Positions 2,231 to 19,488 of a stretch of 32,626 nucleotides of DNA are shown here, in pieces. Numbering within the stretch: position 1 is the first letter of the stretch; each line of letters begins with the position of its first letter. The stretch is from Candidatus Berkelbacteria bacterium (GTDB lineage: Bacteria; Patescibacteriota; UBA1384; XYA2-FULL-43-10; CAINNR01): contig JAPLVG010000022.1 in the NCBI GenBank assembly GCA_026397235.1, forward strand, positions 30,624 through 63,249, given 5' to 3'. The translations under genes were made by a program, and so were the position numbers. Below the pieces are notes generated by a model that did not search any database, was not told the DNA's origin, and saw only the letters and a program-made list of their open reading frames with translations.

Positions 2231-4888
2231 TTATTTGGAACTATAATTTGTAGAGTCTTTTTCTTCAATCACCGCTTGAGCTGCTGCTAGACAAGCAATT
2301 GGTACGCGATATGGTGAGCAGGAGATATAATCCATGCCGGCTCGGTGACAGAATTTGACCGAATCTGGATCTCCGCCATGTTCGCCGCATATACCAATTT
2401 TCAAATGCTCTTTAACGCTTCGACCTTTTTCAATTCCCATTTTCACTAATTGGCCAACGCCATCAACATCCAAGGTTTGGAATGGATCAGCAGCGAAAAT
2501 CTTTTTATCGATGTAGACTTTAATGAACTTACCGGCATCATCACGTGAAAAACCTAGTGTCATTTGGGTTAAATCATTGGTACCAAATGAGAAGAAGTCA
2601 GCTACTTCAGCGATTTCATCGGCGGTAACGGCGGCTCGTGGAACTTCGATCATGGTACCAACCATGTATTTGACTTTGACGCCATACTCTTTCATTGTCT
2701 CAGCAGCGGTAGCGTCGATAATATCTTTTTGATCTTTGAACTCAGAAACATTTCCAACTAGTGGCACCATAATTTCTGGCACTACTTTGACATTTTTCTT
2801 TTTCAAAAGTTCGCAAGCGGCAGAAATAATTGCCTTTGTTTGCATTTTGGTGATTTCCGGATAGGTAATTCCCAAGCGGCAACCGCGATGGCCAAGCATT
2901 GGGTTGAATTCATGTAAATCTTCAGTTTTGCTCCAAATAATTTTTTCATCAATGCCAATTTTCTTTGAAAGCTCTTTGGCTTCCTCTTTGGTTTTTGGCA
3001 AAAATTCATGAAGTGGTGGATCGAGCAGACGGACGGTTACTGAATAACCTTTCATTTCTTCAAATAAACCTTTGAAATCCTCTTTTTGGAAAGGCAGAAG
3101 TTTTTCCAGCGCTTTGCGGCGATCGGCTTCGCTATCAACCAAAATCATTTTTTGCATCAATGGCAATCTGGCGGCGTCGAAGAACATGTGCTCTGTTCGG
3201 CAAAGGCCAATGCCTTCGGCACCGAAACCGGCAGCGGTTTTTGCGTCTCGTGGAATGTCAGCATTGGAGCGAACTCCAAGGCGGCGGGTTTTATTGACCC
3301 AGCCCATAAGTGTTCCAAAGTCTCCGGAAAGTGTCGGCTCGATTGTTGGAACTTGGCCCAAAATTACTTCACCAGTTGAGCCGTTAATGGAAATATAATC
3401 ACCTTCTTTAATAGTTTTTCCGGCAATAATCAACTTGCCAGCTTTTTCATCTACTTTAATATCTTCGCAACCGGCAACACAGCATTTTCCCATGCCACGA
3501 GCGACTACGGCGGCATGTGAGGTCATTCCGCCGCGGGTAGTTAGAATTCCCTGGGCAACTTCCATTCCGGAAATATCATCCGGACAAGTTTCGGTTCTAA
3601 CCAATATAACTTTTTCATCTGCTTTTTTAACTGCGTCTTCGGAGGTAAAAACAACCTTGCCAACGGCAGCGCCAGGGGAGGCTGGGAGGCCAGTAGCAAC
3701 GGCATCATACTTTACTTTGGCATCGAAAACCGGGTGCAAAAGCTGATTCAAGCCCTCTGGTTCAACTCTCATAATTGCTTCTTCTTTGGTAATCATATCC
3801 TCTTTCACCATGTCAACGGCAATTTTGACTGCGGCATGAGCGGTTCGTTTGCCAACTCGGGTCTGCAACATATAAAGTACACCTTGCTCAATGGTAAATT
3901 CAAAATCTTGGATATCGCGATAGTGTTTCTCTAGGTTATCAGTAATATCTTTGAGCTCCTTAAACGCTGCAGGCATTTCTTTCTTCAATTCTATAATTGG
4001 TTTTGGTGTGCGAATTCCGGCAACAACATCTTCTCCTTGGGCGTTGGTTAGGTACTCGCCGTAAAATTCGTTGACGCCAGTCGAAGGGTTTCTGGTAAAA
4101 CCAACACCAGTTGCCGAATCATTGCCCATATTGCCAAATACCATTGCCTGGACATTAACGGCAGTGCTTAAGTCATCAGCAATTTTGTTCATTCGTCTGT
4201 AAGTGAAAGCTCGTGGGTTGTTCCAGCTTTTAAAAACCGCGTCTCTGGCCATAGCCAACTGAGTCATAGGGTCAGTTGGGAACTCTTTTCCTGTTTGCTT
4301 TTTAACTAAATCTTTATATTTTTTGATAACAATTTCTAGGTCCTGTTCGACTAATTCGGTGTCAAGTTTAACTTTGGCGGATTTTTTCACATCTTCCAAA
4401 ATTTCTTCAAACAAAGCTTTTTCAACTTCCAAAACGACATCGGAAAACATTTGAATAAATCGACGGTAAGCGTCGAGTGCGAACCAACGGTTGCCGGATT
4501 TAGTGGCCAGGGCTTCTACAGTTTTTTCATTGAGTCCCAAATTTAGAATTGTGTCCATCATTCCTGGCATCGAGAATTTGGCGCCGGAACGAACAGAAAC
4601 TAAAAGTGGATTCTCTAAGTCGCCGAATTTTTTGCCCACGGCTTTTTCCATTTTGGTAATTGAGTCGGAATATTCGGAGTCAAAACCAGCTGGCATTTTG
4701 CCCTTATTATCTGAGAAATAGTTGCAGACTTTGGTTGTGATTGTAAAACCTGGAGGAACCGGAACGCCAGAGTTAACCATTTCGGCCAGGTTAGCACCTT
4801 TGCCGCCCAAGAGATCTTTCATTTTGCCATTACCCTCGGCTTTTTTGCCGCCGAAGAAGTACACCATCTTTTTTGAATCGGTTGCCAT
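2231..4888 (-). CDS. ppdK: Pyruvate, phosphate dikinase
   Basis: 885 aa with GGKGANLAEM, catalytic TTRGGMTSHAAVVARGMG, and C-terminal SFGTNDLTQMTLGFSRDDAGKF and GICGEHGGDP. Confidence 0.98.
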   Translation of the reverse strand: MATDSKKMVYFFGGKKAEGNGKMKDLLGGKGANLAEMVNSGVPVPPGFTITTKVCNYFSDNKGKMPAGFDSEYSDSITKMEKAVGKKFGDLENPLLVSVRSGAKFSMPGMMDTILNLGLNEKTVEALATKSGNRWFALDAYRRFIQMFSDVVLEVEKALFEEILEDVKKSAKVKLDTELVEQDLEIVIKKYKDLVKKQTGKEFPTDPMTQLAMARDAVFKSWNNPRAFTYRRMNKIADDLSTAVNVQAMVFGNMGNDSATGVGFTRNPSTGVNEFYGEYLTNAQGEDVVAGIRTPKPIIELKKEMPAAFKELKDITDNLEKHYRDIQDFEFTIEQGVLYMLQTRVGKRTAHAAVKIAVDMVKEDMITKEEAIMRVEPEGLNQLLHPVFDAKVKYDAVATGLPASPGAAVGKVVFTSEDAVKKADEKVILVRTETCPDDISGMEVAQGILTTRGGMTSHAAVVARGMGKCCVAGCEDIKVDEKAGKLIIAGKTIKEGDYISINGSTGEVILGQVPTIEPTLSGDFGTLMGWVNKTRRLGVRSNADIPRDAKTAAGFGAEGIGLCRTEHMFFDAARLPLMQKMILVDSEADRRKALEKLLPFQKEDFKGLFEEMKGYSVTVRLLDPPLHEFLPKTKEEAKELSKKIGIDEKIIWSKTEDLHEFNPMLGHRGCRLGITYPEITKMQTKAIISAACELLKKKNVKVVPEIMVPLVGNVSEFKDQKDIIDATAAETMKEYGVKVKYMVGTMIEVPRAAVTADEIAEVADFFSFGTNDLTQMTLGFSRDDAGKFIKVYIDKKIFAADPFQTLDVDGVGQLVKMGIEKGRSVKEHLKIGICGEHGGDPDSVKFCHRAGMDYISCSPYRVPIACLAAAQAVIEEKDSTNYSSK

Positions 4889-5069: not shown

Positions 5070-5098
5070 TTGACATAGAAAACACAATCTGCTATATT
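5070..5098 (+). promoter_or_regulatory. sigma70-type promoter of the tRNA cluster
   Basis: TTGACA (5070-5075) - 17 nt - TATATT (5093-5098). Confidence 0.8.
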
Positions 5099-5120: not shown

Positions 5121-5274
5121 CGGGGCGTGGCGCAGTTGGTAGCGCGTATGGAATATCTGCAGCGAGTAGCTTTATCGGGTCAGGGTAAGATCTTGTTATC
5201 CCGAGGTCAAAGCTTCCGTATCTTGCTGGAGTAAAACCATGAGGTCGCTGGTTCAAATCCAGTCGCCCCGACCA
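5121..5274 (+). tRNA. tRNA-Pro-like gene with 85-nt structured sequence in place of the 7-nt anticodon loop (intron-bearing, pseudo- or noncanonical tRNA)
   Basis: Perfect acceptor CGGGGCG/CGCCCCG (C1-G72), A73, encoded CCA, D arm GCGC-AGTTGGTA-GCGC, anticodon stem TATGG (5147-5151)/CCATG (5237-5241), T arm GCTGG-TTCAAAT-CCAGT. C1-G72 with A73 is the bacterial tRNA-Pro pattern. No T33-NGG-G37 loop is adjacent to the stem. Confidence 0.8.
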
Positions 5275-5290
5275 AATCTCGACATGTTTC

Positions 5291-5350
5291 GCGGCGCGTA
5301 GTCCGATGGACTTAAGTTCCTGGGGTGATTGCCCCTAGGCTGCGTGCCGC
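5291..5350 (+). ncRNA. Unassigned three-way-junction structured RNA in the tRNA spacer
   Basis: Outer stem GCGGCGCGTAG (5291-5301)/CTGCGTGCCGC (5340-5350) with two G-U pairs, and inner hairpins GTCC-GAT-GGAC and CCTGGGG-TGATTG-CCCC(T)AGG. All pairing was read by eye. Confidence 0.5.
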
Positions 5351-5364
5351 GTTGGTTTTCGGCA

Positions 5365-5441
5365 GGAGGGGTAGCTCAGTTGGTTAGAGCAGCGGACTCT
5401 TAATCCGCGTGTCGCTGGTTCGAATCCAGCCCCCTTCGCCA
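5365..5441 (+). tRNA. tRNA-Lys(CTT)
   Basis: Cloverleaf GGAGGGG...CCCCTTC-G-CCA with anticodon loop CTCTTAA. Confidence 0.92.
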
Positions 5442-5521
5442 GAATCTTCTGCTGGTCTCCTCCCCTGAACCAGCAGTTAGGCCCGGACGGCTGTTCCGAC
5501 TGTCATCGGACGTCCGCGGTC

Positions 5522-5598
5522 GGGCCCGTAAAGCTCAGTGGTCAGAGCTGGAGTCTGATAAACTCCGGTCAGTGGTTCAAACCCACTCGGGCCCGCCA
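5522..5598 (+). tRNA. tRNA-Ile(GAT)
   Basis: Acceptor GGGCCCG/CGGGCCC, anticodon loop CTGATAA, encoded CCA. Confidence 0.93.
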
Positions 5599-5614
5599 GC
5601 CAATCTTCGTCACA

Positions 5615-5650
5615 CGGACAACCTCCTCGGTTGTCCGTTTTTTCTTTTTC
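5615..5650 (+). terminator. Intrinsic terminator of the tRNA cluster
   Basis: CGGACAACC-TCCTC-GGTTGTCCG followed by a T-rich tract. Confidence 0.85.
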
Positions 5651-6290: not shown

Positions 6291-8177
6291 ATGGGAAAAA
6301 TTATCGGAATTGACCTTGGCACCACAAATTCAGCTGTTGCTGTAATGGAAGGTGGCGAGGCAAAAATTATTTCAACATCAGAGGGTGGCAGAACTTGTCC
6401 GTCTGTTGTTGCAGAGAATAAAAAAGGCGAGCGTCTTGTTGGTCAGTTGGCTAAACGCCAAGCTGTAACCAATTCAGAAAATACTATTTTTTCTGTTAAA
6501 AGGTTTATCGGTCGCAAATTTGAGGACAAAGAATCACAAGACGACTTGAAAAAAATGCCGTATTCAACCAAAAAGGCCGCCGATGGCTCTATCCGCGTTG
6601 TAATGAACGGCAAAGAGTACTCACCACAAGAAATCTCGGCATTTACTTTGCAAAAGCTAAAAACTGATGCTGAAACATACCTTGGCGAAAAAGTTACTGA
6701 AGCTGTTATCACTGTTCCGGCTTACTTTAATGATTCTCAGCGCCAAGCCACAACTGATGCTGGAAAAATCGCTGGGCTCGAAGTCAAAAGAATTATCAAT
6801 GAGCCTACTGCCGCTGCGCTTGCATATGGATTAGATAAGAACAAGAGCGAAAAAATTGCCGTTTATGACCTTGGTGGTGGAACGTTTGATATTACAATTC
6901 TTGAACTTGGAGATGGTGTTTTTGAAGTAAAAGCTACCAACGGCGATACTCACCTAGGTGGTGACGACTTTGATCAAACGATTATGGACTTTATCATCGA
7001 TGAATTCAAAAAAGACCAGGGCGTTGATTTGCATAACGACAAAGCGGCGATTCAGCGAGTTAAAGAAGCGGCAGAAAAAGCCAAAATTGAATTGTCCAGC
7101 TCAAATGAAACTGAAATCAATTTGCCATTTGTTACTGCCGACGCTTCCGGCCCGAAACATTTGGCCCTCAATCTTTCTCGGGCTAAACTCGAGCAGTTAG
7201 TATCAGACCTAATCGAAAAAACTTTGAAGCCATGTGAAAAGGTTTTGTCCGACGCTAAACTTTCTGCCAAAGATATTGACGAAATCGTTTTGGTTGGCGG
7301 TCAAACCAGAATGCCGGCGGTTCGCGACGCGGTGAAGAAATTCTGGGGCAAGGAACCGAATCATATGGTTAACCCAGATGAAGCAGTTGCTTTGGGCGCC
7401 GCGATTCAGGGCGGAGTTCTTGGTGGTGAAGTTAAAGACCTGTTGCTTTTGGATGTCACTCCACTATCTTTAGGAATTGAAACCTTAGGTGGCGTGGATA
7501 CTAAATTGATCGAACGAAACACCACTATCCCAACATCAAAATCACAAGTCTTCTCGACTGCCGCCGATAATCAAACTCAAGTTGACATCCACGTTCTGCA
7601 AGGCGAACGAGAAATGGCAAATGATAATAAAACCTTGGGTCGTTTCATTCTTGATGGTATTCCACCATCACCGCGAGGAATTCCACAGGTTGAGGTTTCT
7701 TTTGACATTGATGCCAATGGCATTGTGAATGTTTCAGCCAAGGACAAAGCTACCGGCAAGGAACAAAAAATTACTATCACTGCATCGTCCGGTTTATCCA
7801 AAGAGGAAATTGAAAAGATGACCAAGGATGCCGAAATTCATGCCGACGAAGACAAGAAAAAGAAAGAATTGATTGAGGCCAAAAATCTAGCTGAAAACTT
7901 AGTATATACCGCAGAAAAAACCATCAAAGACGCTGGTGATAAAATCGATTCAAATAAAAAGACTGAAGTTGAAGACAAGGTAAAAGCAGTTAAAGATGTC
8001 ATGGCCGAAGAAAATGCCGAAGTTATTAAAAATGCCACTGAAGCACTGTCAACATCACTTCAGGAGCTAGGTGCCTCAATGTACAAACAAGCAGAGGCTG
8101 AAAAACCAGCGGAAAACGCGGAAGAGAAATCATCTGAAGAAAAGGACGAAAAACCAGCGGAAGAAAATAAGTCATAA
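6291..8177 (+). CDS. dnaK: Chaperone protein DnaK (Hsp70)
   Basis: [27 protein letters not shown]...[39 protein letters not shown]...; AAGGAGATAGA ribosome-binding site. Confidence 0.99.
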
Positions 8178-19157: not shown

Positions 19158-19231
19158 GCGGGTGTGGTTCATCGGTAGAATGTATCCTTCCCAAGGATAA
19201 GAGGGCGGTTCGACTCCGCTCACCCGCTCCA
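19158..19231 (+). tRNA. tRNA-Gly(CCC)
   Basis: GCGGGTG...CACCCGC-T-CCA, anticodon loop TTCCCAA. Confidence 0.92.
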
Positions 19232-19236
19232 AAAAT

Positions 19237-19311
19237 AGAACTGAGAATTTAGATTTGAGAGTTTAGAAGAAAATGATAATTTATTTCCCCGAGCTCTAAA
19301 TTCTTAGTTCT
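19237..19311. repeat. 17-bp inverted repeat between tRNA genes
   Basis: AGAACTGAGAATTTAGA (19237-19253) and TCTAAATTCTTAGTTCT (19295-19311), 16/17 complementary. Confidence 0.75.
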
Positions 19312-19324
19312 CAAAACTATTCTT

Positions 19325-19488
19325 GCCGATGTAGCTCAGTTGGTAGTCCAGCCTTTTGCCGCCTTAGCTCAGTTGGTAGAGCAGCACTTTCGTAAAGTGA
19401 AGGTCCCGGGTTTGAGTCCCGGAGGCGGCTCCAAAAAGCTGGATTCGTAAAGTGAAGGTCGGCGGTTCAGCCCCGCCCATCGGCTCCA
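19325..19488 (+). pseudogene. Outer, interrupted tRNA-Thr(CGT)-like gene containing a second tRNA
   Basis: 5' part GCCGATGTAGCTCAGTTGGTAG (19325-19346) and 3' part TTCGTAAAGTGAAGGTCGGCGGTTCAGCCCCGCCCATCGGCTCCA (19444-19488) share a perfect acceptor GCCGATG/CATCGGC. They are split by 97 nt, and 9 nt spanning the D/anticodon arms are missing. Confidence 0.85.
19358..19433 (+). tRNA. tRNA-Thr(CGT), complete, nested in the outer tRNA
   Basis: GCCGCCT...AGGCGGC-T-CCA, anticodon loop TTCGTAA. Confidence 0.92.

Follow-up and report, generated by a model that had tools for sequence, protein, structure and literature searches.

At positions 5121-5274 of the DNA stretch analysed here (the window, 32,626 nucleotides in length), direct reading reveals a tRNA-Pro cloverleaf whose entire anticodon loop has been swapped for 85 nucleotides. 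We think it rather probable that this is an accessory, redundant Pro copy, in which the loop was replaced by a self-complementary insert, and which is transcribed within an island of accessory RNA genes and is unable to decode. The gene is probably expressed and dispensable. Archaea and eukaryotes are known to have interrupted tRNA genes, as are some bacteria, in the form of group I introns. A plain hairpin in place of the anticodon loop, and whole tRNAs residing in anticodon loops, as were encountered in the same genome and in other Patescibacteria, lie outside these known classes, and this wider pattern is of more interest than the window gene itself.

The features of the region are collected in Table 1. 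The 5' half of the gene reads CGGGGCG-TG-GCGC-AGTTGGTA-GCGC-G-TATGG and the 3' half CCATG-AGGTC-GCTGG-TTCAAAT-CCAGT-CGCCCCG-A-CCA. All stems are paired (acceptor 7/7, D 4/4, anticodon 5/5 with one G-U, T 5/5), and the invariant bases T8, A14, G18G19, T54T55C56 and A58 are present together with C1-G72, A73 and an encoded CCA. An earlier note on this DNA had described a full, paired set of tRNA-Pro parts with 85 nt in place of the loop, and a TCGGG pentamer at 5175-5179; direct reading confirmed both, the insert being exactly 85 nt long. Its assignment to Pro is also borne out. Over 41 nt the 3' half shares 98% identity with the Pro-CGG gene of the same genome (contig C23, E 8e-14); for the 5' half, the identity with Pro-UGG and Pro-GGG genes of relatives is 96% (E 7e-7 to 9e-6). 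The resemblance of both halves to real tRNA-Pro genes is well beyond chance. The gene was missed by ARAGORN at default settings and by Rfam. With introns allowed, ARAGORN labels the locus 'tRNA-Tyr with intron', a label contradicted by the Pro-specific stems.

Table 1. Features of the tRNA unit (positions in the window)
Feature	Positions	Strand	Basis
Strong sigma-70-type promoter, TTGACA-17-TATATT, TG before -10	5070..5098	+	consensus match only
5' half of the Pro gene: acceptor, D arm, 5' anticodon stem TATGG	5121..5151	+	all pairs formed
85-nt self-folding insert in lieu of the 7-nt anticodon loop	5152..5236	+	fold, comparison with relatives
3' half of the Pro gene: CCATG, variable loop, T arm, acceptor, A73, CCA	5237..5274	+	sequence comparison
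Branched-hairpin spacer, CGCGGCGCGTAG...CTGCGTGCCGCG	5290..5351	+	fold
Accessory tRNA-Lys(CTT), second copy, discriminator G73	5365..5441	+	ARAGORN, Rfam 70.6 bits
Structured spacer, two hairpins	5442..5521	+	fold
Accessory tRNA-Ile(GAT), atypical D arm, discriminator G73	5522..5598	+	low score, 44.5 bits
Intrinsic terminator, ACGGACAACC-TCCTC-GGTTGTCCGT-TTTTTC	5614..5638	+	sequence pattern

In order-level relatives the stem-loop-stem of Pro-GGG is CATGG-CTGGGGG-CCATG or TCATG. Because its stem TATGG/CCATG matches these, the window gene is closest to the Pro-GGG isoacceptor. It resembles the relatives' Pro-GGG genes in acceptor, D, anticodon-stem and T-arm sequence, in C1-G72, A73 and CCA, but where they carry the 7-nt CTGGGGG it has 85 nt and no anticodon. 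Relative to the Pro-CGG gene of its own genome (CATCG/CGATG), one pair of the anticodon stem has changed on both sides, from C30-G40 to G30-C40, so that pairing is kept. The complete 154-mer folds as the earlier note had described, at -56.1 kcal/mol (z = -2.65 against shuffles). For the insert alone (-24.2 kcal/mol, z = -1.93) the value was equalled in 6 of 200 shuffles, so its internal structure is suggestive but unproven. The borders of the insert, AATAT...TAAAA, are unpaired in the fold and form a symmetric 5x5 internal loop.

The genome containing the window (G000) is of Patescibacteria type and comprises 925 kb in 28 contigs, with an estimated completeness of 99.7%. ARAGORN finds 44 tRNAs in it. 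The earlier note had proposed looking for a full set of normal Pro genes. Part of that set is there, Pro-CGG (contig C23) and Pro-UGG (contig C12) being normal; a normal Pro-GGG gene was not found among the tRNA genes of the genome. The window gene is not the native Pro-GGG gene, since synteny places the native locus on contig C1 (55017-55102, minus strand; L042, L081), with flanks shared with the intact Pro-GGG of G001, a genome of the same genus. The native gene retains the loop CTGGGGG, and a hairpin, CCAGCTCTTTTCTCAAAAAGGGCTGG, replaces its T arm. Thus both Pro-GGG-like genes of this genome are altered, in different arms. CCC is the rarest Pro codon (3.2 per thousand, against 6.0 for CCT, 15.6 for CCA and 13.8 for CCG). 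Through U34 wobble, Pro-UGG may read all four Pro codons. As Pro-UGG and Pro-CGG cover the proline codons, the loss of decoding by the window gene would be tolerated by the cell.

The tRNA unit lies between the genes for PPDK (2231-4888, minus strand) and dnaK (6291-8177) and has the order promoter, Pro gene, structured spacer, Lys(CTT), structured spacer, Ile(GAT), terminator. The promoter agrees with the consensus at 11 of 12 positions and ends 22 bases 5' of the Pro gene; three promoter-like sites occur in the region, against 0.6 expected. The branched spacer belongs to no Rfam family. The core of the Lys gene is 90% identical over 61 nt to a Lys-TTT gene of the array found at the same place in G001. 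That array consists of accessory Lys(CTT), Leu(TAA), Lys(TTT) and Arg(TCT) genes and a long structured RNA, with a promoter and a terminator of its own; a terminator similar to that of the window (CCGGACGACC..GGTTGTCCGG) ends the array of the sister species. The same interval holds no recognisable tRNA in G003, where part of it is masked; in G002, in which a contig edge falls here, the ends of two tRNAs are found immediately upstream of dnaK. Judged by these comparisons of gene order, the PPDK-dnaK interval is an accessory tRNA/RNA island whose content changes from one close relative to the next. In the island, the extra Lys, Ile and Arg tRNAs (window 5365-5598; L268, L277) have G73, unlike the core Lys and Ile genes, and their charging is doubtful. 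A phage origin of the array was considered and rejected, the best phage matches listed being to the Lys gene and showing no more than general tRNA resemblance; in viral contigs, no match was obtained for the Pro 5' half and its stem.

According to the explanation we prefer, a redundant Pro copy would have lost its anticodon loop and received a self-complementary insert in its place. It would be transcribed from its own promoter, together with the accessory Lys-Ile unit, in a fast-changing RNA island. The tRNA-shaped top half of the RNA could be processed and CCA-ended. With the anticodon loop gone, the RNA probably cannot join in translation, and it would have acquired no new function. The event would fit a tendency of the lineage for self-folding sequences (group I introns, plain hairpins and hairpins carrying tRNAs) to enter the loops of tRNA genes. 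The window gene has the marks of a pseudogene, being redundant, not conserved and deprived of an essential part. The earlier note had made a pseudogene reading depend partly on the absence of conservation, and in this respect it stands, neither gene nor insert being conserved in relatives. The intactness of the rest argues against a simple relic: in about 69 nt outside the loop no stem or invariant base is damaged. The pair-preserving change in the anticodon stem and the persistence of a strong promoter and a terminator also speak against our explanation. Such features could mean that the gene arose recently, that it was converted by the Pro-CGG gene, or that selection acts on the RNA. Of the options in the earlier note, a decayed gene behind a strong promoter and a noncanonical tRNA-like RNA are both possible.

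A tentative alternative, which we regard as possible but less likely, is that the locus encodes a maintained noncoding RNA, tRNA-Pro-shaped and with a long arm, of which the charged or uncharged top half is in use, for instance to decoy toxins that cut tRNAs, or to donate aminoacyl groups outside the ribosome. The intact acceptor, D and T arms and CCA, the strong promoter and the compensated anticodon-stem pair relative to Pro-CGG are consistent with such a role, as are the neighbours in the island, atypical G73 Lys and Ile tRNAs here and tRNAs with long structured RNAs in the sister species. On the other hand, the armed form has no homologue in any other genome searched, the insert folds only weakly better than its shuffles, and a single sequence offers no covariation.

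The assembled contigs of the genome were searched for T arm, acceptor and CCA ends lacking a normal 5' half, and several other interrupted tRNA genes were found. The Phe gene (contig C15, 13231-13525) and the Asn gene (contig C4, up to 45293) each carry a group I intron in the anticodon loop (Rfam RF00028, 66.2 and 53.6 bits, respectively); these essential tRNAs are reported missing by default tRNA finders. On reading the sequence, an HNH-like coding stretch appears to be present in the Asn intron region. A complete tRNA-Cys(GCA) lies inside a Cys-type anticodon loop (contig C15, 12357-12533; L052, L104, L245). The outer gene has the acceptor GGCCTCG/CGAGGCC-TCCA and an extra hairpin after the D arm, and has lost the anticodon bases TGC. 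Likewise, a complete tRNA-Ile(GAT) occupies an Ile-type anticodon loop (contig C26, 1491-1811; L057, L113), the outer D loop of which holds hairpins; the same nesting occurs in G007 (contig C50, L248). The Ile insert motif ATACAAGATWTAA..ATGCCCGNAGGGCGACAANGCGTAA is common to two families of the order and is not an Rfam family. In addition, a tRNA-Val lies inside another tRNA-like gene (contig C1, 1916-2130), and an Ala-type 5' half precedes tRNA-Ala(CGC), with the common flank CCCTGTTAAATA.

Nested genes of this kind were sought more widely by a pattern of two T-arm/CCA modules too close together for tandem tRNAs, a pattern blind to genes whose T loop differs or whose CCA is not encoded. It was found in 37 of 389 Patescibacteria genomes, against 2 matches for the reversed control pattern, and in none of 50 genomes of other phyla, most of them several times larger, a control weakened by the fact that some of those lineages may not encode CCA. 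At many of the loci one tRNA gene encloses a second, complete tRNA in its anticodon loop, and the two are usually of one isotype (for example L221, L225, L235, L242, L247, L250, L255, L257, L258 and L274). The outer acceptor stem is formed around the insert with 7/7 Watson-Crick pairs in 20 of the 45 parsed loci; chance is estimated to supply about 0.7 such stems, given about 254 nt of upstream DNA per locus. Wherever the outer isotype is readable (Trp, Thr, Gly, Arg, Ile, Val, Met, Glu, Cys), the inner anticodon fits it. In the Val locus of G176 (contig C2, L225), three Val cloverleafs are nested, to a depth of at least 3, with a fragment of a fourth.

When excision was required to restore a 5-bp stem, a 7-nt loop, U33 and the inner anticodon, 13 of 45 loci passed (means 5.0 and 3.7 in two controls, with a control maximum of 9). 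In convincing loci the insert frequently separates anticodon base 35 from base 36 (Trp CC|A, Thr CG|T, Arg CC|G, Ile TA|T, Gly CC|C; Arg TC|T in L250, read by hand), and the insert ends are commonly complementary and GC-rich, as in CCCGCAC..GTGCGGG and CCCGCCTGCC..GGCGGGCAGG. The window itself has uninterrupted Gly(CCC) and Thr(CGT) genes at 19158 and 19358 (19158-19433), the likely orthologues of which are interrupted in relatives, Gly in G004 and both genes in G054; this likely provides a natural comparison of the locus before and after insertion. In the Gly pair of G004 and G054 the insert ends are 91-95% alike, against 79-80% for the outer halves, a difference that speaks for a mobile, site-specific insert rather than for one acquired long ago and retained. 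This likeness suggests separate or recent arrival, and long-term retention of the nested outer genes is not claimed. Outer genes can decay: the outer Cys 5' half is kept in G209 and lost in G303. Downstream of a complete tRNA-Val(TAC), a further family (f62; L283-L287, L289) has a short, often hairpin-forming spacer and then an extra 3' half with CCA. These extra halves are often near-identical and mostly without an outer 5' half, and G376 has two tandem extra copies.

The match between inner and outer anticodons is best accounted for by survival: where a genome has a single gene for each isoacceptor, an insert disrupting that gene persists only when it supplies a replacement. Splicing of the nested outer genes is possible but unproven. 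If they are spliced, bacteria would have a tRNA-joining route of which we found no description. If not, these tiny genomes are struck by an element which disrupts tRNA genes present in one copy and itself supplies the substitute. In both cases the tRNA counts of Patescibacteria have to be corrected; interrupted genes escape default ARAGORN and Rfam searches. In the open literature, as distinct from subscription papers and preprints, no description of nested tRNAs in Patescibacteria was found.

The same observations permit a broader reading, which we consider unlikely: Patescibacteria may have an undescribed class of small, non-group-I anticodon-loop inserts, often placed between bases 35 and 36 and often carrying a complete tRNA, which are either taken out of the transcript or have their flanking halves joined once the inner tRNA has been excised, so that both tRNAs work, the window gene being a derived, hairpin-only member whose decoding is no longer needed. 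Like the nested genes of its phylum and its own genome, the window gene has a self-folding insert in the anticodon loop; unlike them, the insert lacks complementary ends of the CCCG..CGGG type, an inner tRNA and a clean insertion point. Rfam detected no tRNA within 5152-5236 at E<=5, and a candidate degenerate inner tRNA (7-bp CAGCGAG/CTTGCTG, then TA) had no tRNA score at this threshold and was deemed a chance match.

That the window gene is the precursor of a working tRNA-Pro, interrupted by a new kind of small intron, was one of the options of the earlier note. The other Patescibacteria inserts whose exact removal would restore the loop, often between bases 35 and 36, give this some plausibility, but we regard it as very unlikely for the window gene. 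Clean excision was enumerated by hand, and position 33 was always A or G, never U, in agreement with the statement of the earlier note that no simple removal yields T33 and a Pro anticodon. In all border joins inspected by hand, no 7-nt loop with U33 and an NGG anticodon arose, and none of the 7 bases of the relatives' CTGGGGG is left at the insert borders. These findings exclude a simple intron, unless the mature RNA is unlike any tRNA. A search of Rfam at E<=5 gave no group I, group II or other intron family for the insert; it reported only the Lys and Ile tRNAs of the unit and antisense hits attributable to chance. The same method does detect the group I introns of the Phe and Asn genes.

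Group I introns, including those of the Phe and Asn genes, are likewise sited in the anticodon loop of a tRNA gene, but the window insert measures 85 nt against about 240-260 for those two Rfam matches, has no conserved core, and is flanked by exons that do not restore a loop; the earlier note had already judged it far too short for a typical group I intron. Archaeal and eukaryotic tRNA introns share with it a small anticodon-loop insert in a cloverleaf; the window gene, however, is bacterial, its loop is not restored, and the bulge-helix-bulge is absent from the insert borders, where the fold has the 5x5 internal loop instead. Split tRNAs occur in Nanoarchaeum equitans and tri-split tRNAs in Caldivirga. 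To these the nested genes, not the window gene, bear some likeness, since the outer halves end in complementary GC-rich extensions that would hold them together if the inner tRNA were cut out; they differ in that the halves stand in one transcription order around an inner tRNA, and the joining machinery is putative. Tri-split tRNAs are mentioned in PMC10714607. An assembly error or chimera, in which two Pro halves were joined around foreign sequence, is highly improbable: the draft is of metagenome type, in 28 contigs, and the gene is known from one genome only, but the locus is well inside a contig of 63 kb and is flanked on either side by DNA syntenic with relatives, the two halves can form pairs with one another, and the insert does not recur as a repeat elsewhere in the order.

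A pattern search of 55 other genomes of the class gave no copy of the interrupted Pro gene, leaving the window as the sole true case, and BLAST found no copy of the insert in 10 other genomes of the order. Since the insert thus has no detectable source, we infer, rather than observe, the insertion of a mobile hairpin in the explanation preferred above. Its arm GCAGCGAGTAG is single-copy in the genome, and CTTGCTGGAG has 4 copies. A dispersed palindromic repeat was rejected as the source, there being no match to the listed palindromes of the genome. Palindromes number 389 in this genome against 120 in a codon-shuffle control, an about 3-fold excess. Among them are dispersed, REP-like palindromes centred on CGATCG, of the type ACTGATTT..CGATCG..AAATCAGT (for example at C4:33904, C8:8570 and C1:42499).
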